Positions 6,077-33,220 of a stretch of 34,879 nt of DNA are shown piece after piece. This stretch comes from an uncultured Rikenella sp. GTDB lineage: Bacteria; Bacteroidota; Bacteroidia; Bacteroidales; Rikenellaceae. The stretch covers positions 1 through 34,879 of the forward strand of contig NZ_CANQYJ010000012.1 of the NCBI RefSeq assembly GCF_947628055.1, written 5' to 3'. Numbering within the stretch: position 1 is the stretch's first letter; every line of letters starts with the position of its first letter. Under the pieces are notes generated by a model, which made no database searches, was not told the origin of the DNA, and saw only the letters and a program-made list of their open reading frames with translations. The position numbers and the translations under genes were made by a program.

Positions 6077-6084
6077 TATATTTG
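6077..6084 (+). promoter_or_regulatory. Bacteroidetes-type -7 box (TATATTTG) upstream of bioB
   Basis: Matches TAnnTTTG about 22 nt before the ATG at 6106. Confidence 0.55.
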
Positions 6085-6105
6085 CAAAAACTCTTACCGA
6101 AAACG

Positions 6106-7080
6106 ATGAAATCCATCGAAGAACTCACCGCCGGCATTCTCGGCGGATACCTTATATCCGAAGCGGAGGCTCTCGATTTGCTCCACCATGCCGAAACCGA
6201 CGCTTTGTGCGATGCGGCGGATCGGGTGCGCAGGCATTTCATGGGCGACCGATTAGACACTTGCTCGATCATGAACGCCCGCAGCGGGCGTTGTCCGGAG
6301 GACTGCAAATGGTGTTCGCAGTCCGTGCACCATAAAACGAAAATCGACGTATATCCGCTCACGGATCAGGCCGAGGCGCTGCGCCACGCCCGGGACAACC
6401 ACGACAAAGGGGTGGGCCGCTTCTCGTTAGTGACCAGCGGCCGGACAATGACGGACGCGCAGATAGACCGGTGCGTGGAGATATACCGCGCGATCGCCGC
6501 CGAGTGCGAAAGGTTCCGCGGCGGAATGCTGTGCGCCTCGATGGGCCTGCTGACCCGGGAGCAGCTGCAAAGACTCAGGGATGCGGGAGTGGGCAGCTAC
6601 CACTGCAACATCGAGACGGCCCCGTCTTACTTTCCGAAGCTCTGTTCCACGCATACGCTGGACGAAAAACTCCGAACCATAGGCTGGGCGCGGGAAGCGG
6701 GGATGAAAATATGCAGCGGAGGGATTATCGGCATGGGCGAGACGGCGGAGCAGCGGGTGGAGATGGCTTTCGCACTGCGGAACATCGGTGTGGCGTCGAT
6801 CCCGGTCAACGTGCTGAACCCCATTCCGGGGACGCCGTTGGAAAACATGCCGCCGCTGCCGGACGACGCGATTCTGCGCACTTTCGCCCTGTTCCGGCTC
6901 ATCAATCCGGCGGTCTATATCCGTTTTGCGGGAGGACGCACGCTGCTCAGGCCCGAAATCCAGGAGCGGGCGTTGCGCAGCGGAGTGAACGCGGCGATCG
7001 TGGGCGACCTGCTCACGACCATCGGTTCGGGCATTGCGCAGGACAAGGAGATGTTCGCCCGCTGCGGCTTCTCCTGCTGA
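6106..7080 (+). CDS. bioB: biotin synthase
   Basis: Radical-SAM motif SGRCPEDCKWCSQS plus NIETAP, CSGGIIGMGE, RFAGGRTLL. Start at MKSIEEL. Confidence 0.95.
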   Translation: MKSIEELTAGILGGYLISEAEALDLLHHAETDALCDAADRVRRHFMGDRLDTCSIMNARSGRCPEDCKWCSQSVHHKTKIDVYPLTDQAEALRHARDNHDKGVGRFSLVTSGRTMTDAQIDRCVEIYRAIAAECERFRGGMLCASMGLLTREQLQRLRDAGVGSYHCNIETAPSYFPKLCSTHTLDEKLRTIGWAREAGMKICSGGIIGMGETAEQRVEMAFALRNIGVASIPVNVLNPIPGTPLENMPPLPDDAILRTFALFRLINPAVYIRFAGGRTLLRPEIQERALRSGVNAAIVGDLLTTIGSGIAQDKEMFARCGFSC

Positions 7081-9908: not shown

Positions 9909-10324
9909 GTACGGTTTATTTAGCACTGTGCCGTGAGTGACTGTTCTTTCTTTGAAAAGAAAGGCCCCATAGGGGCTTTCCGGGCTGTAATTACCCTAAT
10001 CCTTACGCTCCGCAGTCCTCTTTCTTTGAACCCTGTTTTTTTGTCAGGACTTTCCAATGCGGCGCGCATAAAGGTAATGCAATCATTAGCGCGCCCATTG
10101 AGAAAGCCCGACAAAAACAAAACATTCGAGAACCGGGGGTACCCGGCAGGCTCAAGAGATGCGTTAGCATCTCAAAAAGTTTTTCTGGTTCTCGCTAACT
10201 GCGCTCCGCTTGTTTTCCTCCTCGCCGCTCACCATAGTCCGCAAGCGGCCTCTGGATTCGCTGGCAGCGTCGGTTGTTCACAAAGAGAACAGTACCCTCC
10301 TGGAACACGTACAATAAAACCTAC
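9909..10324 (+). repeat. mosaic structured repeat element, copy C
   Basis: Shares gtgagtgactgttctttctttgaaaagaaag, cgctccgcagtcctctt, gggtacccggcaggctcaagagatgcg..agcatctcaaaaa, and ttgttcacaaagagaacagtaccctcc..aaaacctac with copies A and B. Internal hairpin differs. Confidence 0.8.
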
Positions 10325-13867: not shown

Positions 13868-16261
13868 CTACTCCCTTACGTAAATTCGTTTGATCCGCGC
13901 CGATACGGAAGTCAGCACCTCATACGAGATCGTGCCCAAAACCCGAGCCACATCCCGCACAGTAGGCTTTTCGCCGAAAATCACCACCTCGTCCCCCTCA
14001 GCCGCCTCCGGTACAGCCGTTACGTCGATCATGCAAGTGTCCATGCAGATATTTCCGATCGTCGGACACAACACCCCCCGGACACAAACCTGCCCCGCCC
14101 CATTTCCTAAGCCCCGGTCCATGCCATCCGCATAGCCGATCGGGATAGTCGCCATACGCATCGGGCCGCCGACGACCCCGCGCCGGTTATACCCCACCGT
14201 ATCGCCCGCATGCAGATGTTTGATCTGCACGATCTGCGTTTTGAGCGTCGCCGCCACTTGCAATTTCGGATCCTCGATGCCGTACAGCCCCACCCCCAGG
14301 CGCACCATGTCGAAATGAGCCTCCGGAAAACGAACGATCCCCGCACTGTTGCAGATATGGCGCAAAATAGAAGTGTCGCCTAGCGCCTCGACGATCCGAC
14401 CGCTCATGGCCGTAAAAGCGGCAATCTGTCCCCGCGTAAATTCATCCTCCGCCGGGTCTTCCGAAGCCGCCAAGTGCGAAAAGATCGACCGTACGCGAAC
14501 CGCATTCTCCCGCTTCAAAGCATCGCAAAGAGCCGGAATGTCGTCCGGCATGAACCCCAGACGGTGCATGCCCGTGTCCATCTTCAGGTGTATAGGTGCT
14601 CCGGCGATACCCCGGCTGCCCATCTCGCAGGCGTAATTTTTCAGCGACGCGAACGAATAGATTTCCGGTTCGAGGTCGTAATCGGCCATGACCGCGAAGC
14701 TGCCTGGATCGGAGTTCAGCACCACGATCGGCAGGTGTATTCCGGCTTCGCGCAGCGCCACCCCTTCGTCGGCGAAAGCGACAGCCAGATAATCGACCCC
14801 CTCGTGTTGAAGCATAGCCGCGATCTCGTCCGCCCCGGTTCCGTAGGAGTAGGCCTTGACCATCACCATTACCCGCGTCTCCGGCCGGAGCATGGCGCGG
14901 AAGTGGTTCAGATTGTCGGCCAGCGCGGTGAGGTTGACCTCCAGCGTGGTGGTATGGGTGCGTTTCTCCAAAAACCGGGAGATGCGCTCGAAACCGAAAG
15001 CCCGGCTCCCCTTGATCAGAATATACCGCCCGGCGAAACGTTCTTTGTCGGCGTGACGCAGAAAGTCGTCGGTGGAGGCATAGAAATGGGCATGCTCGGG
15101 CCCCAGAACAGCGGCGAAGCGATGCGCTGCCGAAGTGACCTCGGGCCCGATTCCGATCAAGTCGGCGACTCCATGCTCCCGCACCAAGGCAGCCACCTGC
15201 CGGTAGAGCTCGTCCGGTTTCAGCCCGGCCTGCATGATGTCGGAGAGGATCAGCGCTTTGGAACGCTCCCCGGCGTTATGGTCGAGGCAGTCGAGAGCGA
15301 TCCCGAGCGAAGTGAGGTCGCTGTTGTACGAGTCGTTGATCAGGGTGCTCCCGAGTATCCCTTCGCGCAACTCGAGCCGCATGGCGACAGGCTGCAATTC
15401 CGAAAAGGGTTTCGGCGCGATGCCGAGCAGTCGATAGAGCGCTGCGACATGGGCGGCGTTTTCGCGCGAAGCGTAATCCCCGAAAAGCTCGGCCAGGCCG
15501 GTCATTTCGTCGGCTCTCCAGCCGTGAAGACGTTCGGGACATTTGCCGTACCGTTTGCCGATATGCCGGGCGATCAGCGGGCTGTCGGCATGATAGATCA
15601 CAGCTTCGGCCCCCCGGAACAGCTTGAGCTTTTCGTCGAGTTTCTGTTCGTCGGAGTTGAAATTTTCGCTGTGGGCGGCCCCGATATTGGTGAGGATGCC
15701 GATCTGGGGACGGATCATGGCTTCGAGCCGCTCCATTTCGCCGGGCTGCGAGATTCCGGCCTCGATCACCACGAGCTGTTCGTCGCCCCGGATCATCAGC
15801 AGCGAAAGGGCTACGCCTATCTGCGAGTTGTAACTGCGCGGGCTGCGCAGCAGCCGTCCGGCACCCTCGGGCCAGAGCTGTGCGATCCACTCTTTGACCA
15901 CCGTCTTGCCGTTGCTGCCGGTAACGGCTGCCACGGTGCCGTTGTACTGCTGGCGGTGGTAGGCGGCCAGGGCCTGCAAAGCCTGAAGCGTGTCGGGCAC
16001 AGTGACGAACGAGGCTTCGGGCATGGCTGAGGCGGCGGTGTCGGGCACGTATCCGGCCAGAAAACTGCGCACGCCGCGGCGATAGAGGTCGGCGATATAG
16101 TGATGTCCGTCGTGGTTGGGCCCGGTCAGGGCGACGAAAAGGGTGTCGGCGGGCCGGGCAATGTGGTTGCGGCTGTCGGTGGCGACGGCGGTGACGTGCC
16201 GGTCGCTGCCGTGGAGGGTGCCGCCGGAGGTGGCGGCTATGTGGGACAAAGTGTAATCCAT
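13868..16261 (-). CDS. bifunctional MurF ligase / alanine racemase
   Basis: N-terminal Mur ligase (AVTGSNGKTVVKEWIAQL, SYNSQIGVALSLL, LINDSYNSD). C-terminal alanine racemase (MVMVKAYSYGTGADEIA, HLKMDTGMHRLGF, GYNRRGVV, IPIGYADGMDRGLG, ICMDTCMIDVT). Start at MDYTLSHIAA. Confidence 0.95.
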   Translation of the reverse strand: MDYTLSHIAATSGGTLHGSDRHVTAVATDSRNHIARPADTLFVALTGPNHDGHHYIADLYRRGVRSFLAGYVPDTAASAMPEASFVTVPDTLQALQALAAYHRQQYNGTVAAVTGSNGKTVVKEWIAQLWPEGAGRLLRSPRSYNSQIGVALSLLMIRGDEQLVVIEAGISQPGEMERLEAMIRPQIGILTNIGAAHSENFNSDEQKLDEKLKLFRGAEAVIYHADSPLIARHIGKRYGKCPERLHGWRADEMTGLAELFGDYASRENAAHVAALYRLLGIAPKPFSELQPVAMRLELREGILGSTLINDSYNSDLTSLGIALDCLDHNAGERSKALILSDIMQAGLKPDELYRQVAALVREHGVADLIGIGPEVTSAAHRFAAVLGPEHAHFYASTDDFLRHADKERFAGRYILIKGSRAFGFERISRFLEKRTHTTTLEVNLTALADNLNHFRAMLRPETRVMVMVKAYSYGTGADEIAAMLQHEGVDYLAVAFADEGVALREAGIHLPIVVLNSDPGSFAVMADYDLEPEIYSFASLKNYACEMGSRGIAGAPIHLKMDTGMHRLGFMPDDIPALCDALKRENAVRVRSIFSHLAASEDPAEDEFTRGQIAAFTAMSGRIVEALGDTSILRHICNSAGIVRFPEAHFDMVRLGVGLYGIEDPKLQVAATLKTQIVQIKHLHAGDTVGYNRRGVVGGPMRMATIPIGYADGMDRGLGNGAGQVCVRGVLCPTIGNICMDTCMIDVTAVPEAAEGDEVVIFGEKPTVRDVARVLGTISYEVLTSVSARIKRIYVRE

Positions 16262-16291
16262 GTTTTTTGTTGCCGTTGTGGTTCGAGGCTG

Positions 16292-16299
16292 CAAAGTTA
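16292..16299 (-). promoter_or_regulatory. -7 box TAACTTTG upstream of murF-alr
   Basis: caaagtta on the + strand, about 30 nt upstream of the start. Confidence 0.5.
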
Positions 16300-16426
16300 C
16301 ATTTTTTATCGGCTCGCTGCGGCGGCCGACCGGTTTCCGTTCCCGTGCGCCCGGCACCGCCGCCGGCGGTTTCCCCTTGTCGGCGGGAGCGGCGGGAAAA
16401 AGCACGCGGGAACGCGTGAAATTAAG

Positions 16427-16434
16427 TATCTTTG
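16427..16434 (+). promoter_or_regulatory. -7 box TATCTTTG upstream of recF
   Basis: TAnnTTTG match 28 nt before the ATG at 16462. Confidence 0.5.
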
Positions 16435-16461
16435 TCTGTCAAACTTTTGTGGGGGATAAGG

Positions 16462-17565
16462 ATGTTCCTGGAACGGATTTCGATACTGAATTTCAAAAAT
16501 ATAGCGGAGGCGGAACTGGAGTTCTCGGCCAATGTGAACTGCCTGGTCGGGGATAACGGCACCGGGAAGACGAACTTGGTGGATGCGGTGTGGTACCTGT
16601 CGATGAGCAAAAGCTCGGTGGGGCTGACGGACGGGCAGTCGATACGGCACGGGGAGGATTTTTTCATGCTGGACGGACATTATTCGCTGGGCGGCGGGGA
16701 GCGGCGGGAAGGGGTGGTGTGCAGTTTCAAGCGGGGGGCGGGCAAGGTCATCAAACGGAACGGCAAGGAGTATGACCGGGTGACGGAACATATCGGGCTG
16801 CTCCCTATCGTGATGGTGTCGCCGGCGGACACGGCGCTGATCCACGAGTCGGGCGACGAGCGGCGGCGGTTTCTCAATTCGTTCCTTTCGCAGATCGATC
16901 GAGAGTACCTCACGGCGATGGTGAAGTACAATCGTTTGCTTCAGGAGCGCAACCGGCTCCTGAAGACGGGGGCGCTGTCGGGATTCGGGGAGATTCTGGA
17001 GGTGCTGGACATGCAACTGGCGGAGGTGGGGACGCTGGTGTATGCCAAGCGGGCGGAGATGATTGCCCGGCTGGCGCCGAGGGTGGCGGAGTATTATGCG
17101 ATCTTGTCGTCTGACCGGGAAGAGGTGGAGGTGTCGTATCGCTCGGAACTTTCGGAGGGGGATTTTGCGAGTCTGCTGGAGGCGTCGCGGGAGCGGGATC
17201 GTCTTTGCGGGTTCACGAACTGCGGAATCCACCGGGATGATATGAAGTTGGAAATACTGGGCTTTCCGATCCGCAAATATGGTTCGCAGGGGCAGCAGAA
17301 GTCGATGCTGCTGGCGCTGAAGCTGGCGCAGTTCGACATTATCCGGGAGCTGAGGGGGGTAAGGCCGATCTTGTTGCTGGATGATGTGTTCGACAAGCTG
17401 GATATGGCGCGGGTGGAGCAGCTGATCGGAATGGTGTCGTCGGATCGGTTCGGACAGATTTTCATTACGGACAGCAATAAGGTGCGGATTGAGGGGATTT
17501 TGGCGAAAATGACGGAGAATTACAAGTTGTTCGGGGTGAACGGCGGTGTGTTTACGGAGGTGTAG
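16462..17565 (+). CDS. recF: DNA replication/repair protein RecF
   Basis: MFLERISILNFKNI, VGDNGTGKTNLVDAVWYLS, YGSQGQQKSMLLALKLAQ, ILLLDDVFDKLD. Confidence 0.95.
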   Translation: MFLERISILNFKNIAEAELEFSANVNCLVGDNGTGKTNLVDAVWYLSMSKSSVGLTDGQSIRHGEDFFMLDGHYSLGGGERREGVVCSFKRGAGKVIKRNGKEYDRVTEHIGLLPIVMVSPADTALIHESGDERRRFLNSFLSQIDREYLTAMVKYNRLLQERNRLLKTGALSGFGEILEVLDMQLAEVGTLVYAKRAEMIARLAPRVAEYYAILSSDREEVEVSYRSELSEGDFASLLEASRERDRLCGFTNCGIHRDDMKLEILGFPIRKYGSQGQQKSMLLALKLAQFDIIRELRGVRPILLLDDVFDKLDMARVEQLIGMVSSDRFGQIFITDSNKVRIEGILAKMTENYKLFGVNGGVFTEV

Positions 17566-17619
17566 CTTTTGCAGAACGGGCTTTGCCGATGGACTGACAA
17601 TATGCGGACTATTTTATTT

Positions 17620-17998
17620 GTAGGTTTTCTTGCACATGCTTGGGAGTGAACTGTTCTCTTTGTGAACAAAGAGAACCAGAAAACCGACGCAGCAGGCGAG
17701 CGCCATCAAGCTTGCTCGAATGGCCGAGGCGCCAGGAGGAAGGCGAAGTCAAACTTTCTGAGATGCTTACGCATCTCTTGAGCCTGCCGGATACCCTTGT
17801 CTTTGATTCTCTTGGGGTGTGAGCAATAGCGGGCTATTGAGTACCGTGCTTTATGCCCGCTATTGCCACGCCCCAAAGAAAGTGCAATGCAAGAGGACTG
17901 CGGAGCGTAAGGAGTAGCGCAGCTATCGGAAAGTCTTTTGGGTACCTTTTCTTCAGAAAAGGTACGGTTCCATCCGGCACCGTGCAATATAAACCTAC
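17620..17998 (-). repeat. mosaic structured repeat element, copy A
   Basis: Terminal inverted repeat gtaggtttt.ttgcac..gtgcaatataaacctac. Reverse complement matches copy B over nearly its whole length by eye. Hairpins at 17653-17676 and 17814-17874. Confidence 0.88.
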
Positions 17999-18080
17999 AA
18001 TTAAATAAATTCAGTTTCCGCAGCAGCACGGCGCCGCACGGCGGAAATACGAAAAACACAGCCAACCTACCGAATAAAAT

Positions 18081-18821
18081 ATGCAAATCGACATTATAGG
18101 CACCGCCGCCGAAGTCAACGACCAGCGCGTAGCCGGTCGGAACGTCGCCGTGATCGACGTTTTCCGCGCCACATCCGTGATGATCACCGCCATGCGAAAC
18201 GGCGCACGCGAGATCATCCCCGTGACCGGCATCGAAGAAAGCTTTCGGCTGCGCGACCTGATCGCCCAGGCACACCGCCAGGCCGATGATCCCGGCCCCG
18301 TGCTGCTCGGCGGCGAACGCAACACCGTCATCATCGAAGGCTTCGACCTCGACAACTCCCCTTTGCGGTATACCCCCGACATCGTGCGCGACGCCACCAT
18401 CATCATGAGCACCACCAACGGCACCCGCGCCGTGAACTGCGCCCAAGGCGCCGCCGACGAAATCTACATAGCCGCCTTGCTCAACGCCGACGCCGTAGCA
18501 CAGCGATTGGGCGAACAAGGCAAAGACACGGCACTCATCTGCTCCGGCCGGCACGACCGGTTCACGATCGAAGACGCCCTCTGCGCCGGAATGATGGCAC
18601 GATATTTGGCGAACCACTACGAATATACACTTACCGATTTCGCGTGGTGGTGCGCCGACGTGTACCAGCGGTACGAGACCGACCTGATGCAGGCCCTCGG
18701 CCACTGCGAACACTATCGCAACATCAAAGGCCGCTGGGCAGCCGACATCGAATGGTGTCTGACCCGCAACATGACGGACATCACCCCGCACATCACTAAA
18801 GAAGGAGGAATCCGACCATGA
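18081..18821 (+). CDS. comB: 2-phosphosulfolactate phosphatase family (ComB-like)
   Basis: VAVIDVFRATSVMITAMRNGAREIIPV, LLGGERN, IIMSTTNGTRAV, ICSGRHDRFTIEDALCAG. Confidence 0.9.
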   Translation: MQIDIIGTAAEVNDQRVAGRNVAVIDVFRATSVMITAMRNGAREIIPVTGIEESFRLRDLIAQAHRQADDPGPVLLGGERNTVIIEGFDLDNSPLRYTPDIVRDATIIMSTTNGTRAVNCAQGAADEIYIAALLNADAVAQRLGEQGKDTALICSGRHDRFTIEDALCAGMMARYLANHYEYTLTDFAWWCADVYQRYETDLMQALGHCEHYRNIKGRWAADIEWCLTRNMTDITPHITKEGGIRP

Positions 18822-19060
18822 CAACCGACAACACCATGGATCAAAGCCGCGTAGTGACCATCAAACGCTACACCACGCCCAACGAAGCCTATCTCGACGC
18901 CGACCTGCTCCGCGACAACGGCATCGAATGCAGCGTAGACGGAGCCATCGGCGACACAGTGCTGCCATTCATCCAGGGACAAGTCAGCCTGCTCGTCGCC
19001 GAAGTCGACGCAGCGCGGGCGGCAGCACTCGTGCCCGGCGCCGACCTGCCCACAGACTGA
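18818..19060 (+). CDS. DUF2007-type putative signal-transducing protein
   Basis: ATGA overlap with comB. VVTIKRYTTPNEAYLDADLLRDNGIECSVDG..VSLLVAEVDAARA matches the DUF2007 pattern. Confidence 0.8.
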   Translation: MTTDNTMDQSRVVTIKRYTTPNEAYLDADLLRDNGIECSVDGAIGDTVLPFIQGQVSLLVAEVDAARAAALVPGADLPTD

Positions 19061-19077
19061 AACCCATAACCGAAACT

Positions 19078-20271
19078 ATGCCCATAACCCGCGAAGAAGA
19101 GATTCTCGGAGATCTGGCCGCCCGGGGCAACCTGCGCAGCCTCAACACCCTGCGCACCCACGGCGCCTATATTTACGCCCCGGACGGACAGGGCGGCGAA
19201 ACGGAATACTACAACCTCTCGTCCAACGACTACCTCGGCCTCGCAGAAACCGCTTTGCAGAAGCGGTTTCTGCGCTCGGTCGACACGGAACGTTTCCTGA
19301 TGGGAAACCCCTCGTCCCGGCTGATGACCGGCAACAGCCCTGCCTATGCCGCATTGGAAAACACCCTCGCCGGACTGCTGGGCACAGAAACCGCACTCGC
19401 ACTCGGCTCGGGATTCGCCGTGAACAGCGGCATACTGCCTGCCGTGACCCAAAAAGGCGATTTGATCCTGGCCGACAAACTGGTGCACGCCAGCCTGATC
19501 GACGGATTGAGACTTTGCGGCGAGGGAGTGGAGTGGCAGCGGTTCCGGCACAACGACATGGAACAGCTCGCCACGATGCTCGGCCGCACGCAGGGGAAAA
19601 GCTGCGGACGGACGATTGTCGTGACCGAGAGCCTTTTCAGCATGGACGGCGACTTCGCACCGCTGGACACCTTAGCGGAACTGCAACATCAATACGGTTT
19701 CCTGCTCTACTTAGACGAAGCCCACGCCTTCGGCATATACGGGCCTGAATCCGCCCCGGGCACAGGTTTGCTGGCCGCTTACAATGCGGCCCATCCCGAG
19801 CTGCCTTTACGGGCGGAATACCAGGTGGTGACTTTCGGCAAGGCATTGGCTTCGGCAGGAGCGGCCGTGGCCTGCTCGCAACAAACCAAAGAACTGTTAA
19901 TCAACCGGATGCGGCCGCTGATCTTCTCCACCGCCCTGCCCGACATGACCTTAGAGTGGACCCGGTTCCTGCTCGGCAGGCTGCCCGAATTCCAGCCCAA
20001 ACGCCAGCGGCTGCAAGAGCTGATTTCCGTGATCAACCACACTTTGCAACCGGAAAATCCTTACCTTTCGCAAATCATACCCATTAGGGCCGGAACCAAC
20101 GAAAACGCATTGCGCATGGCCGCTGTCCTGCGCGACGAAGGGTTCTGGACGACGGCCATCCGGCACCCCACCGTTCCGCAAGGAGAAGCCCGGATCAGAG
20201 TATCGCTGTGCGCAAGTCATAACCCGTATAAAATCGAACAATTCGCCACCCTATGCAAGCAGTTTGGATAA
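19078..20271 (+). CDS. bioF: 8-amino-7-oxononanoate synthase (alpha-oxoamine synthase family)
   Basis: NLSSNDYLGLAE, GSRL-like SSRLMTGNSPAYAALE, TESLFSMDGDFAPLDTLAEL, LYLDEAHAFGIYG, VVTFGKALASAGAAV. Start at MPITREEE. Confidence 0.9.
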   Translation: MPITREEEILGDLAARGNLRSLNTLRTHGAYIYAPDGQGGETEYYNLSSNDYLGLAETALQKRFLRSVDTERFLMGNPSSRLMTGNSPAYAALENTLAGLLGTETALALGSGFAVNSGILPAVTQKGDLILADKLVHASLIDGLRLCGEGVEWQRFRHNDMEQLATMLGRTQGKSCGRTIVVTESLFSMDGDFAPLDTLAELQHQYGFLLYLDEAHAFGIYGPESAPGTGLLAAYNAAHPELPLRAEYQVVTFGKALASAGAAVACSQQTKELLINRMRPLIFSTALPDMTLEWTRFLLGRLPEFQPKRQRLQELISVINHTLQPENPYLSQIIPIRAGTNENALRMAAVLRDEGFWTTAIRHPTVPQGEARIRVSLCASHNPYKIEQFATLCKQFG

Positions 20272-20984
20272 CCCGCTCCGCCGAGGCCGACATTCCGCAG
20301 AGACGCGTGATCGTCTTCGCCGCCGGCTGGGCCGGATCGGACGAACTGGTGCGGCATCTCGCTCGGCCGGCGGAGTGCGACCTGCTGTGCCTGTACGACT
20401 ACCGCTCACTCCCCAGCCCGACGGAAACCGCCGGCCTCTATTCACAGATCACGCCATACCGTCACAAACACCTGATAGCCTGGTCTTTCGGCGTTTGGGC
20501 CGCCACGCGGATATTCGGCGGCGGGCTTTTCGACCGGGCAAACGATTGGGACACCGCCACCGCCGTGAACGGCTCTCCCATTCCGATTAGCGACACCTAT
20601 GGCATACCCCGGCGGGCCTTCGCCGTCACGGAGCGGAGCATCGGCACTGCCGGAACGGCGAAATTCCTCGAACGCATGTGCGGCACCCCGGCAATCCTGA
20701 AAGCATATTACAAACACCGCTCCACCCGGGCTTTGGAGGAGATCTGCGACGAACTTCGGCAACTCCGGCGGCAGGCTCTCGACGGCCTGCCCGAAAAGCC
20801 GGAACTGGTTCCGGCTTTCTGGACCGGCGCACTCATCGGCGGACAGGATGCTATCTTTCCGCCGGAAAACCTGTCGGCCTACTGGCGCGAAGCCGGCGTG
20901 CCGATCGCTTTCGACCCGGATATGCCCCATTATCCGCTGTACGACCCAGAAAGACTGATCCGACTGATTTATGAAACACGATAA
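20253..20984 (+). CDS. bioG: DUF452 family, pimeloyl-[ACP] methyl ester esterase BioG
   Basis: VFAAGWAGSDELVRHL, LYDYRSL, LIAWSFGVWAA. Overlaps bioF and bioC. Confidence 0.88.
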   Translation: MQAVWITRSAEADIPQRRVIVFAAGWAGSDELVRHLARPAECDLLCLYDYRSLPSPTETAGLYSQITPYRHKHLIAWSFGVWAATRIFGGGLFDRANDWDTATAVNGSPIPISDTYGIPRRAFAVTERSIGTAGTAKFLERMCGTPAILKAYYKHRSTRALEEICDELRQLRRQALDGLPEKPELVPAFWTGALIGGQDAIFPPENLSAYWREAGVPIAFDPDMPHYPLYDPERLIRLIYETR

Positions 20985-21792
20985 AGTGCTGCTGAAGCAG
21001 AGATTCGAGCGTCATTTGGGAACCTACGACACGCTGGCTACCGTACAGCGCGCCATCGCCGGGCGGCTCGCGACTTTGCTGGAGAGCACCGGTACTTCCG
21101 ACCTGAAAGAGGGCGGGAAAAAAGGCGTCGAGATCGGCACCGGAACCGGATTCCTGACCCGGCATCTGATACGGCTCTTTCCCCGGACGGAATGGACGCT
21201 GAACGATCTGGTGCCCAAAAGCCGGGACTTTCTTCCCCCGACCACGCCTTGCGGCGTTCCTTTACGGTTTACGGCGGGCGACGGCGAGCTTTTCCGCTTC
21301 GGTACGGCGGTTTACGACTTGATCGCCAGCGCCTCCACCGTGCAGTGGTTCGACGACCTGCCGGGCTTCATCGCGCGTGCCGCCGCAGGGCTCGCACCCG
21401 GCGGCATACTGGCCCTCGGCACTTTCGGCCCGGAAAACTTCCGCGAGATCACTGCCACTACCGGGCAGGGGCTCGAATATTATCCGCTCGGCGAACTCGT
21501 CCGCATTTTTTCGACAAACGGCCTGCGCATCCTCTCCGAGGAGGAGTGGATCGAAGAGCAGCACTACCCTGCACCGACGGACGTATTGCGCCATTTGCGT
21601 CTCACCGGGGTCAATGCCGTGGCTGCGGAAAGATGGACGCACAGCCGCCTGAAACAATTTGAAGCGGACTACCGTTCCGCGTATTCTGTCGGTGCAGCGT
21701 CTGCCTCCGGCCCGAAAAAAGAGGAAGAAAAAAGCGGAGAATCCGTAACTTTGACTTTTCATCCGATCCTCCTGATCGCAGAAAAGCATTGA
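20971..21792 (+). CDS. bioC: malonyl-[ACP] O-methyltransferase BioC
   Basis: SAM-methyltransferase motif GVEIGTGTGFLTRHL, NDLVP, LIASASTVQWFDDLPGFIARAAAGLAPGGILALGTFGPENFREI. Confidence 0.9.
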   Translation: MKHDKVLLKQRFERHLGTYDTLATVQRAIAGRLATLLESTGTSDLKEGGKKGVEIGTGTGFLTRHLIRLFPRTEWTLNDLVPKSRDFLPPTTPCGVPLRFTAGDGELFRFGTAVYDLIASASTVQWFDDLPGFIARAAAGLAPGGILALGTFGPENFREITATTGQGLEYYPLGELVRIFSTNGLRILSEEEWIEEQHYPAPTDVLRHLRLTGVNAVAAERWTHSRLKQFEADYRSAYSVGAASASGPKKEEEKSGESVTLTFHPILLIAEKH

Positions 21793-21797
21793 GAATC

Positions 21798-22472
21798 ATG
21801 ACACTTTTATCCCGCGGCGCCTATTTCGTGAGCGGCATCGACACCGACGCCGGCAAGAGTTACGCCACCGGCGTGCTCGCCCGTATGTTGCAAGCCCAGG
21901 GGGTGCGCACAATCACCCAGAAATTCGTCCAGACCGGCAACACCGGCACTTCGGAAGACATCGAGCTGCACCGCCGGCTGATGGGGATCCCCATGCAGCC
22001 GGAAGATCTCGACCGGACGACTTGTCCGATCATTTACCGGTTTCCTGCCTCGCCCCACCTCTCTGCGGCTTTGGAAGGAACGGCGGTGGACACGGCTGTG
22101 ATCACGGCCTCTACCGACAAACTGCTGGAGCGATACGACGTCGTGCTGATCGAGGGGGCGGGGGGGCTGCTGGTGCCTCTGCGTCCGTTCGATCCGGCCC
22201 GCGAACCGCACGAATACCTGACTGCCGACTATGTGGCGGAGCATCGGCTGCCTCTGCTGTTCGTCACGTCGGCCCGGCTGGGAAGCCTGAACCATACTTT
22301 GCTCGGTTTTGAAGCGTGCCGGAAGCGGGGGATAGAGATTGCTGCGGTGCTGTGGAAGCTCTATCCGGCGGGCGATCCTCTCATCGCGGCCGACACGCGG
22401 AATTATATCGCGGATTATCTGCGGGTCTGGTGGCCGCAAGCCTGCCTGATCGACATTCCGAAAGCGGAATGA
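21798..22472 (+). CDS. bioD: dethiobiotin synthetase
   Basis: YFVSGIDTDAGKSYATGVLARML, KFVQTGNTGTSEDIELHRRLMG, VLIEGAGGLLVPL. Start at MTLLSRG. Confidence 0.94.
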   Translation: MTLLSRGAYFVSGIDTDAGKSYATGVLARMLQAQGVRTITQKFVQTGNTGTSEDIELHRRLMGIPMQPEDLDRTTCPIIYRFPASPHLSAALEGTAVDTAVITASTDKLLERYDVVLIEGAGGLLVPLRPFDPAREPHEYLTADYVAEHRLPLLFVTSARLGSLNHTLLGFEACRKRGIEIAAVLWKLYPAGDPLIAADTRNYIADYLRVWWPQACLIDIPKAE

Positions 22473-22562
22473 CCAGCTCCGTATTCCCCGGCGAACTTTC
22501 GTCGGGTATCTCCGGGCCGCCGCCACGGGGGCTGCGATGAGCCGAACACGTACAACTTTATC

Positions 22563-23020
22563 GTAGGTTTATTTTGCATTGTGCTGTGAGTGACTGTTCT
22601 TTCTTTGAAAAGAAAGAACCAAAGAAACTTTCAGATAGCTGCGCTACTCCTTAGGCTCCGCAGTCCTCTTGCATTGCGTTTGCTTTGGGGTGTGGCAATA
22701 GTGGGCATAAGGTATGGTACTCAATAGCCCGCTATTGCTCACACCCCAAGAGAATCAAAGACAAGGGTACCCGGCAGGCTCAAGAGATGCGTAAACATCT
22801 CAAAAATTTTAGCTTCGCCTTCCTCTTGGCGTCTCGGCCATTCGAGCAAGCTCGATGGCTCTCGCCTGCTGCGTCGGTTTTCCAGTTCCTTTTGTTCACA
22901 ACCGAGCAGCGTTTCGAGAGCAGAGGCCGCTTGCGGACTATGCCGAGATAGCGCGAGGAAAACAAGCGTAGCGAAGTTAAAGAGAACAGTTCCCTCCCAA
23001 GCACGTATAAGAAAACCTAC
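22563..23020 (+). repeat. mosaic structured repeat element, copy B
   Basis: Begins gtaggtttattttgcattgtgctgtgagtgactgttctttctttgaaaagaaagaac and ends ccctcccaagcacgtataagaaaacctac. Inverted relative to copy A. Carries a ~77 bp module at 22902-22978 that is absent from A. Confidence 0.88.
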
Positions 23021-23044
23021 TTATAACAATAGAAATTGCCGACT

Positions 23045-23833
23045 ATGGAAATCAGCCTCATCTTCTTTTCGCCGACCCATACCGGCCGGACCATTGCAGA
23101 GGCAGTGGCCGCCGGCTTCGCCTCAGGGGCCGATACCCTGCGAAACATCGACCTGACCTTGCCAAGCGGCAGCAGGAAAACGATCGAAGCTGGAGACATC
23201 GCAATCTTCGCCGCACCGGTTTACGGCGGCCGGGTAGCCGAAACCGCAGTGGAACGGTTCAGGCAAGTCAGAGCGGCGGAACCGGGCGTTACGCCAGCGA
23301 TATTGACCGTGGTCTACGGAAACCGCGATTATGAAGACGCACTGCTCGAACTGCAGGATATAGCCGTGCGGCAAGGATTCGTGCCCCTGTCGGCAGGAGC
23401 CTTCATCGGCGAACATTCCTACAGCCGTCCGAAAGAAGGGAGGCCCATCGCAGCAGGGCGTCCCGATGAAGCAGACCAGGCGCAGGCCCGACACCTCGGA
23501 GCCGCCTCGCGGGAGAAATATGAAAAAGGGACCCCGCAGCCATTGACAGTCAAAGGTCATATCCCCTACAAAACGAAAGGCCCTTCGACACCCGCCACAC
23601 CGGAAACCGATCCGGCCTTATGCACCGGATGCGGAACATGTGCCGAAATCTGCCCGACGGAAGTCATTTCGCTCACGGAAGCCGGAACAGCAGTCAGCGA
23701 CCTAACGGGATGTATCAAATGCTGCGCTTGCGTGAAATTCTGCCCGGCAGACGCCCGGAGGTTCGACACCCCCTATACCGAGAAACTGTTCACCCACTTC
23801 AGCGCCCGACGCGAGCCGGAACTGTTTTTGTAA
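23045..23833 (+). CDS. EFR1-type protein: flavodoxin-like domain plus 2x[4Fe-4S] ferredoxin
   Basis: ISLIFFSPTHTGRTIAEAVAAGF (FMN-binding-like), CTGCGTCAEICPTEVI and CIKCCACVKFCPADA clusters. Confidence 0.88.
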   Translation: MEISLIFFSPTHTGRTIAEAVAAGFASGADTLRNIDLTLPSGSRKTIEAGDIAIFAAPVYGGRVAETAVERFRQVRAAEPGVTPAILTVVYGNRDYEDALLELQDIAVRQGFVPLSAGAFIGEHSYSRPKEGRPIAAGRPDEADQAQARHLGAASREKYEKGTPQPLTVKGHIPYKTKGPSTPATPETDPALCTGCGTCAEICPTEVISLTEAGTAVSDLTGCIKCCACVKFCPADARRFDTPYTEKLFTHFSARREPELFL

Positions 23834-31003: not shown

Positions 31004-33220
31004 TTATTCATCCAGCCCTGTGATATTAGCGAATTGGCTCCATCCATCGGCAGCCTTATAGGCCGTCACCGACGACGATGGGACTTTTAAAATGCAAAAA
31101 AAACTTTTTTTACCAATATCCGTCAATGCCCCGGTACCAATCCGGGGAGGAATCGAGGTGCCGATCTTGAACAATTGCACGCTTGAATTACCCCAAAAGG
31201 CATAATCCTCGATAGAAGTTACTTGTGTACAATTCGACATATCCACTGTCGTCAAATATAGCCCAGCAAAGGCTCCATAATAGTAAGAGAAGTACTGTCC
31301 TCCTCCAATCGTGTTGAGTTGAGACCCTGGTTCAAAGGTTACTGTTGCCAAGTTAGAACAGCCTTGGAATGCAGCACTTTCAATCATCTCCACACTGGCT
31401 GGAATCTCGATAGAGGTTAACGAGGAACAATCCGAAAAGGCACCATAATAAAATTGACCATCATATCCACTTGCACCATAACCTCCTGCAATCGTTTTCA
31501 ATCGAGACCCTGGTTCAAAAGTTACCGTTGCTAATTTAGAACAGTCTTTGAATGCACATATTTGAATCGTCTCCACACTGGCCGGAATTTCAATAGAGGT
31601 TAACGAGGAACAGTCCGAAAAGGCACCATGATAGATATTAGAATAGGTAGCATCAAGTGCACCCCCGATTAGTTTCAACTGAGACCCCGGTTCAAAAGTT
31701 ACCGTTGCTAATTTAGAACAGCCTTTGAATGCCGAGGCTTGTATCGTTTCCACACTAGCTGGAATTTCTACAGTAGTCAATGCGGTATAAGCAAGCAATC
31801 CTTCACTAATAATGGTCAAGGTTTTAGGAAGAATCAATTTTTGCACATTTTTAGAATAAAAAGCTTTTGCCGGCAACTCCGTAATATTTACTTCGGAAAT
31901 ATCGAGGTCAGTCAAAGCAGGCATCGAATAGTAGATAAACAGGAAATCGGCATCGTTCAATATCCCCGTAATTTTCAACGACTTGATGCGGGCATAGTCA
32001 TAGCCTGACAATACGTTCTCCAGTTCGCCTTTCGTCTCGACATGTACTTCCGTGCAGGTACCCAACTGCTGAATCATAATCGTTTGCAGGGTGTTTTTCT
32101 GCTCGTCTTTCAAAAAGACTGTTGCAAAACGTTGAGTCCCCTCGTTGGCAGCAACCTGAAAGGAGAGCGTCTTCTCTTGCAAAGCACGGGTCGCAGGAGC
32201 CAACGATAACCACGACTGAGCATCGGCAGAAATCTCGACCGTATAATCCATATTCGTCATTAATTTAATGGCTACGGTTCCTCCTTCAGAGGGAGTATCG
32301 ATCGCATTATCAGCCAGAACAACCTGACCCTGCATGCAATTCAAGGTAGCCATAAGAGTTCGATACTCTCCGTCATTGACGAATACAAGGATTTCACTTT
32401 CGACAATCGGGTTGGGAGCCGTTACGGTAATCGTCCCCTCGGCAGTCGAGGTCGGATTAACGATCGCTTTCCAGCCGTCTTGTGCAATCGCTTTGACAAC
32501 CGTATTTTCCGTACTTCCTGTGATCGTGTAAGAAATCGTTTTGCTCTCGCCTCCGTTCAAAATAGCGGCATCGGTCGTATTGAAAACAATGGCAAACTTC
32601 GCGCCCTCGCTTTTCGGTACCGTAAGAACGGTTCCGCTGGTCAACGTAAAATAGGCATTGTCTTTGTCTTCCGTTACACTTTTGAAGATGCTGTTACCAT
32701 CTTTACCATCTTCACCCACGGCCTTGCCGAGTTGTGTCCAAGTACTGCCGTTATTATAGGATATATACCAGTACCCATTCTCGATTTTCAGTTGAGGCGT
32801 AATGCCATCTTTACCACTCGTGCTGTCTTCTCCGTTTGTCCCATCCGTACCTTGTGCTTTCACTTTCTTACCTGCATCATCGGTCAGCCAACTGCCGTTC
32901 ACCGTCCAATAATAGAACCCGTCTTTATCTTGTTTCACGCCAATCTCAGGTGCATCGCCGCTATTCATCCCGTTCCGGATCGTTGCACTCTTACCGTCCG
33001 AGAAATGGATCGTGTACCCGTTCGTATTTTCTTCTACTTGGGTGATCGTAACTTGCGATTGTAGAGCCGTTACGATGGTTTGCAAGGCGGAAAGTTCTTC
33101 TTGCAACCTCGTTACCCGACCATTCACATCATTCAGTCCATTGCGTAACTCACTATCGTCATACTCGCTGCATCCGGACAGCAATGCGCTACCCATCAGC
33201 AAAAACAGTAGTTTTTTCAT
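31004..33220 (-). CDS. BspA-like leucine-rich-repeat surface lipoprotein with DUF4988-like N-terminus and BACON-like domains
   Basis: Lipobox MKKLLFLLMGSALLSGCSEYDDSELR. EIGVKQDKDGFYYWTVNGSWL..GKDGITPQLKIENGYWYISYNNGSTW. LRR_5-type repeats SLTSIEIPASVETIQxxAFKGCSKLATVTFEPGSQL. Confidence 0.92.
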   Translation of the reverse strand: MKKLLFLLMGSALLSGCSEYDDSELRNGLNDVNGRVTRLQEELSALQTIVTALQSQVTITQVEENTNGYTIHFSDGKSATIRNGMNSGDAPEIGVKQDKDGFYYWTVNGSWLTDDAGKKVKAQGTDGTNGEDSTSGKDGITPQLKIENGYWYISYNNGSTWTQLGKAVGEDGKDGNSIFKSVTEDKDNAYFTLTSGTVLTVPKSEGAKFAIVFNTTDAAILNGGESKTISYTITGSTENTVVKAIAQDGWKAIVNPTSTAEGTITVTAPNPIVESEILVFVNDGEYRTLMATLNCMQGQVVLADNAIDTPSEGGTVAIKLMTNMDYTVEISADAQSWLSLAPATRALQEKTLSFQVAANEGTQRFATVFLKDEQKNTLQTIMIQQLGTCTEVHVETKGELENVLSGYDYARIKSLKITGILNDADFLFIYYSMPALTDLDISEVNITELPAKAFYSKNVQKLILPKTLTIISEGLLAYTALTTVEIPASVETIQASAFKGCSKLATVTFEPGSQLKLIGGALDATYSNIYHGAFSDCSSLTSIEIPASVETIQICAFKDCSKLATVTFEPGSRLKTIAGGYGASGYDGQFYYGAFSDCSSLTSIEIPASVEMIESAAFQGCSNLATVTFEPGSQLNTIGGGQYFSYYYGAFAGLYLTTVDMSNCTQVTSIEDYAFWGNSSVQLFKIGTSIPPRIGTGALTDIGKKSFFCILKVPSSSVTAYKAADGWSQFANITGLDE
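31300..31775 (-). repeat. intragenic tandem repeats encoding LRR units
   Basis: Three near-identical blocks (gagaccctggttcaaaagttaccgttgctaatttagaacagcctttgaatgc..ccacactggctggaatttc..) within the BspA-like gene. Confidence 0.85.

Follow-up and report, generated by a model that had tools for sequence, protein, structure and literature searches.

Composite transposons bounded by MITEs (TIME-COMP) have ends that are 99.6-100% identical, 5-bp direct repeats and a partner transposase (PMC4133298). Palindromic repeats of the REP/BIME type, including GTAG-tagged families, are associated with a RAYT transposase (PMC3733652, PMC2817692). In the open literature we found no paper linking Rikenellaceae with miniature inverted repeats, and no matching description of the element reported here. 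The locus lies in a 34,879-nt stretch of DNA (the window) from the genome bin of an uncultured Rikenella sp. (2.41 Mb, 170 contigs, 87% complete). The first-pass annotation had described about 4.5 kb (17999-22562) with six co-directional genes between long inverted repeats, and this geometry was borne out by arm alignment, by the reading of the element ends, which gave the same inner limits, and by Pfam/NCBIfam matches (Table 1). Probably, the two bracketing repeats, A and B, were placed independently of each other as copies of a non-coding, MITE-like multi-hairpin element that is present in many copies and belongs to a Rikenella-like genus, the bracket being a by-product of copy density.

Table 1. 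Element copies and genes in and around the bracketed segment (positions in the window)
Feature	Position	Strand	Remarks
recF	16432..17565	+	TIGR00611 324 bits; left neighbour of A
Element copy A	17620..17998	+	End type I; inverted-arm alignment, reading of the ends
comB-like, 2-phosphosulfolactate phosphatase family	18081..18821	+	Pfam PF04029
DUF2007 gene, 80 aa	18818..19060	+	PF09413, E 5e-5, 23.7 bits, slightly below cut-off 25.7
bioF	19078..20271	+	TIGR00858 332 bits, below 426-bit equivalog cut-off
bioG	20253..20984	+	PF04301
bioC	20971..21792	+	TIGR02072 164 bits, slightly below 185-bit cut-off
bioD	21789..22472	+	TIGR00347 139 bits, above cut-off
Element copy B	22563..23020	-	End type I; about 80 nt extra insert in hairpin 1
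4Fe-4S protein gene	23036..23833	+	Right neighbour of B
Element copy C	9909..10324	-	End type I; hairpin 3 of another sequence type

The inverted arms of A and B extended over 345 nt (17660-18004 and 22557-22901) with 86% identity, and arms at their outer ends over 48 nt (17614-17661 and 22979-23026) with 88% identity. As read from their ends, both copies opened with GTAGGTTT and closed with AAACCTAC. For each, a copy at least as close was present elsewhere: the closest relative of A was C45:15432 (94%, vs. 86% to B), whereas C32:12062 was 87% identical to B. This indicated that neither copy is the sister of the other. Copies C and A stood in a similar inverted geometry around recF and its neighbours. 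The start codon of comB was placed 82 nt past the end of A, and the start of bioF was set from the region conserved in congeners; the longest ORF, from 18928, overruns the DUF2007 gene. Operon context supports the names of the genes scoring below cut-off (DUF2007, bioC and bioF). A biotin synthase gene, bioB (6082-7080; TIGR00433 397 bits, above cut-off), was located 11 kb upstream of comB-bioFGCD, and in the congener G001 at about 50 kb from this block. The window also carried a Mur ligase - alanine racemase fusion gene (13868-16405) and three imperfect tandem copies of about 150-180 nt (31299-31810) within a gene for a BspA-type leucine-rich-repeat surface protein (31004-33220, minus strand).

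The order of parts was common to the copies, with a terminal inverted repeat, hairpin 1, hairpin 2 containing the core, hairpin 3, a linker (GGACTGCGGAGCNTAAGGAGTAG), hairpin 4 and a second terminal repeat. Copy A started with the GTAGGTTT end, hairpin 1 (GTTCTCTTTGTGAACAAAGAGAAC), an optional 67-nt module and hairpin 2 (GAGATGCTTACGCATCTC), with the core TTGAGCCTGCCGGATACCC at 17778-17796, followed by a long hairpin 3, the conserved linker GGACTGCGGAGCGTAAGGAGTAG, hairpin 4 and the AAACCTAC end. Folded as single-strand DNA, copies A and B displayed z values of -8.1 and -6.1, respectively, as compared to shuffles. The stem of hairpin 1 was kept via paired changes (GTTCTCTTT/AAAGAGAAC, GTTCTTTTT/AAAAAGAAC and, in one copy, GTTCCTTTT/AAAAGGAAT), which were read off the variants and not from a covariation statistic. 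Several unrelated sequences occupied hairpin 3, every one of them forming long stems. Modules within the hairpins were found both ways round, as if loops flip between stem arms; the insert of hairpin 1 had opposite orientations in C and B, and hairpin 3 was flipped in L093 with respect to C. The inversions documented by sequence are thus those inside elements, not one of A versus B.

Shared interiors carried two or more common end types (GTAGGTTT and CGTTCGTTTATTC) as well as rarer ones. Automatic classification of 24 copies gave one type for left and right ends in 23, the remaining copy lacking a recognisable left end; inspection of about 32 copies by eye agreed, with no clear mismatch. This indicated that A and B are whole elements and not half-and-half recombinants. 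Random hybrids, if frequent, would be mixed-ended in about half of the cases, and from the by-eye count we estimate that hybrids make up at most roughly one fifth of the copies. In the flanks of 24 copies no direct-repeat length or offset exceeded shuffled flanks save in single cases, and a TTAA-like preference appeared 2 nt outside the element ends (left 10/24, right 4/24). No target-site duplication was detected around A, around B or around the A-B unit, the flanks before A (TATTTTATTT) and after B (TTATAACAAT) showing no direct repeat at the outer ends.

An IS1380-type mobiliser, suggested by the TTAA-like flanks, was ruled out by the absence of PF13701 from eight genomes of the genus, with positive control genomes scoring. 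PF01797 and PF01609 were absent from four genomes of the genus, the positive control genomes again scoring. Among the three transposase families searched, no autonomous relative with the same ends was obtained; there were lone ends only, all truncated, and L163:4332, considered as an autonomous element, was one such remnant. In 1.6 Mb of G001, no repeat with ≥88% identity was found that exceeded 550 nt, so that multi-copy insertion sequences seem absent there. At gathering thresholds, Rfam returned two tRNAs only for the whole window and no match for the element, which was therefore rejected as a known structured RNA; plasmid or phage origin was discarded as well, since the comparison with plasmids and phages gave no match.

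The core TTGAGCCTGCCGGGTACCC was present at a minimum of 117 places (at least; ≤2 mismatches) in the host genome, about one element copy per 20 kb, whereas the reversed-pattern control gave 0; copy A as blast query scored at least 40 places. In 379 kb of sampled host sequence there were 60 element pieces, many of them at contig ends. Most copies (28/35) were intergenic, and the other 7 overlapped an ORF edge or an ORF without homologue. Among 100 listed core places, 31 neighbouring pairs shared one contig, 19 of them in opposite orientation and 11 of these within 5 kb; random placement would give about 14 opposite pairs within 5.5 kb genome-wide. With an element so dense, opposite neighbours so common and A and C arranged likewise, the A-B bracket was to be expected. 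It is what chance gives, and unremarkable. Within the genome collection, a pattern taken from the element was found only in one uncultured Rikenella sp., from a rabbit sample, on which basis the host is presumed to be Rikenella-like.

Genes comB-bioFGCD were contiguous in six congeners (G001-G006) and bioFGCD in the seventh (G007), with protein identities of 53-85%, which indicated that the gene block is ancestral and not imported. Judging from these comparisons, the comB-DUF2007-bioFGCD block is vertically inherited in the genus. Its ancestral neighbourhood, as seen in G003-G006, comprised K008-K026-K038 before and K006-K027 after the block; in the host, contig C128 now carries the upstream neighbours and C102 those from the downstream side. 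Both edges of the block were synteny breaks in the comparison with 7/7 congeners, so that the synteny check proposed in the first pass returned changed neighbours on both sides of bioFGCD. If the contig is correct, both edges would be new joins. At A, recF (G001 285 kb) meets comB (G001 2033 kb), and at B, bioD (G001 2029 kb) meets a gene located at G001 2278 kb. The recF gene never adjoined bio genes in the congeners where it was found, nor did the 4Fe-4S gene in any congener; both genes were far apart in G001, G004 and G005 and adjacent in no congener where both were placed. There was consequently no empty site to compare.

Upstream of comB, G001 and G002 likewise carried elements, which had different end types; this points to recurrent insertion at this place. 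Also upstream of comB, an element between K026 and the carbamoyltransferase-like K038 (L052, L053 and L051) occupied the same site and orientation in G001, G003 and G006, indicating that element copies persist vertically. It had GATCTTTT ends in these three genomes but differing interiors, and was absent from G004 and G005. At the end of contig C128 (L131:5900-6310), a different palindrome-rich, repeat-like sequence came after the gene that ancestrally neighbours comB on its upstream side; G003 and G006 had similar sequence upstream of comB, which suggests a second dispersed family.

According to the preferred reading, the element occupies intergenic gaps at the edges of transcription units, and copies happen to sit on either side of comB-DUF2007-bioFGCD, a block passed on vertically. 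Its past spread would have occurred by transposition, the transposase having been lost or not being recognised. Against this reading of A and B as passive copies stand the lack of a target-site duplication that would prove past transposition, the lack of an autonomous partner, and the location of 3/3 window copies at synteny breaks with respect to G001, a higher share than expected of a repeat that is purely passive.

The window's own copies had prompted the question of breaks and were left out as tests. In an early small test, 3/16 element junctions were syntenic vs. 30/47 controls, a signal that grew weaker once more sequence was added and transcription-unit boundaries served as controls. 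A later test considered element junctions outside the window, with the 1.6 Mb of G001 as comparison. Element junctions were syntenic in 6/20 cases, as compared to 39/75 for all controls (p = 0.13), 14/22 for controls with gaps ≥150 nt (p = 0.04) and 18/41 for transcription-unit boundaries (p = 0.40). When immediate neighbours were anchored on both sides, 4/13 element junctions were syntenic vs. 18/26 controls (p = 0.04) and 7/11 transcription-unit boundaries (p = 0.22), p ranging from 0.01 to 1.0 across settings. Breaks were not clearly commoner at copies than at other transcription-unit boundaries, and a break enrichment at copies was not upheld once its early signal had weakened.

These data bear on the reading that homologous recombination between element copies shuffles the chromosome and that exchanges at A and B brought the bio block to where it now lies. 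Three ancestral blocks (G001 285 kb, 2033/2029 kb and 2278 kb) meet exactly at A and B, the right side of L161 (1772 kb) and the left side of L156 (1773 kb) are halves of one ancestral neighbourhood split at two copies, and the two-sided comparison with all controls and the scarcity of long repeats in G001 point the same way. We nevertheless consider such shuffling unlikely: the difference vanished against transcription-unit boundaries, genes at 0.3-9.1 kb of the window were also scrambled with respect to G001 with no element among them, and exchange among random copies predicts mixed end types, none of which was seen.

Assembly errors at a repeat could likewise have created the joins at A and B, in a bin of 170 contigs, many of which end within an element copy, and with neighbours of the block that differ from those of all congeners. 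This, too, is improbable, as misjoins at shared inner sequence predict mixed end types, absent among the approximately 32 copies, A and B are distinct from other copies and so can be told apart by reads, and scrambling is present also where no element lies.

Identity between A and B runs unbroken for at most 54 nt, a length accessible to RecA pairing, and recombination between both copies could, in principle, invert the 4.5-kb segment. Operation of this segment as a RecA-dependent switch is very unlikely, however, given that nothing points to a promoter switch, since the flip takes in the entire unit with its upstream region, and that A and B are not homogenised. Least probable is the movement of a biotin cassette as a MITE-bounded composite transposon, also advanced in the first pass: the geometry fits, the block has new neighbours and transposing composites of this kind are documented (PMC4133298), but A and B are diverged (86%), with copies at least as close elsewhere, whereas TIME-COMP ends differ by ≤1 nt (PMC4133298), no direct repeat surrounds the unit, no cognate transposase (three families) and no plasmid or phage match was found, and the cargo consists of ancestral chromosomal genes present essentially clade-wide, on which grounds the proposal was abandoned.

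The arrangement is real but ordinary, and of the two the element family holds more interest; an attractive biotin transposon that lacks support is thereby kept off the record. What emerges from a Rikenella-like genus is a dense family of MITE-like elements that has apparently not been described before. It disrupts short-read assemblies, and it offers a way to ask if gene order is shaped by orphan repeats in genomes with few insertion sequences. More speculatively, and with rather low expectation, a genus-wide transposase-less multi-hairpin family might be the main repeat of chromosomes that seem nearly free of repeated insertion sequences; its hairpin loops would flip, its end types would diversify pairwise, and operons, comB-bioFGCD among them, would be reshuffled when copies recombine.

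As in TIME-COMP1, A and B are two non-autonomous copies in opposite orientation around host genes (PMC4133298), but with ends only 86% identical and without 5-bp direct repeats or a partner transposase. With REP/BIME the element shares more than 100 extragenic copies with hairpins, and its end type I starts with GTAG; in contrast, it is about 10 times longer, the GTAG is apart from the hairpin and other end types lack GTAG and CGTC. A REP/BIME with RAYT was ruled out, there being no 20-40 nt GTAG- or CGTC-tagged hairpin, and Y1 transposase being absent from the four genomes searched. The element differs from MITEs in that no target-site duplication was demonstrated and no parent insertion sequence turned up, in that three or more end types share one interior, and in that this interior is a chain of exchangeable hairpins, whereas it resembles them in being short (about 320-650 nt as measured), non-coding, high-copy, intergenic and without a transposase of its own, and in its AT-rich terminal inverted repeats, matched within copies.
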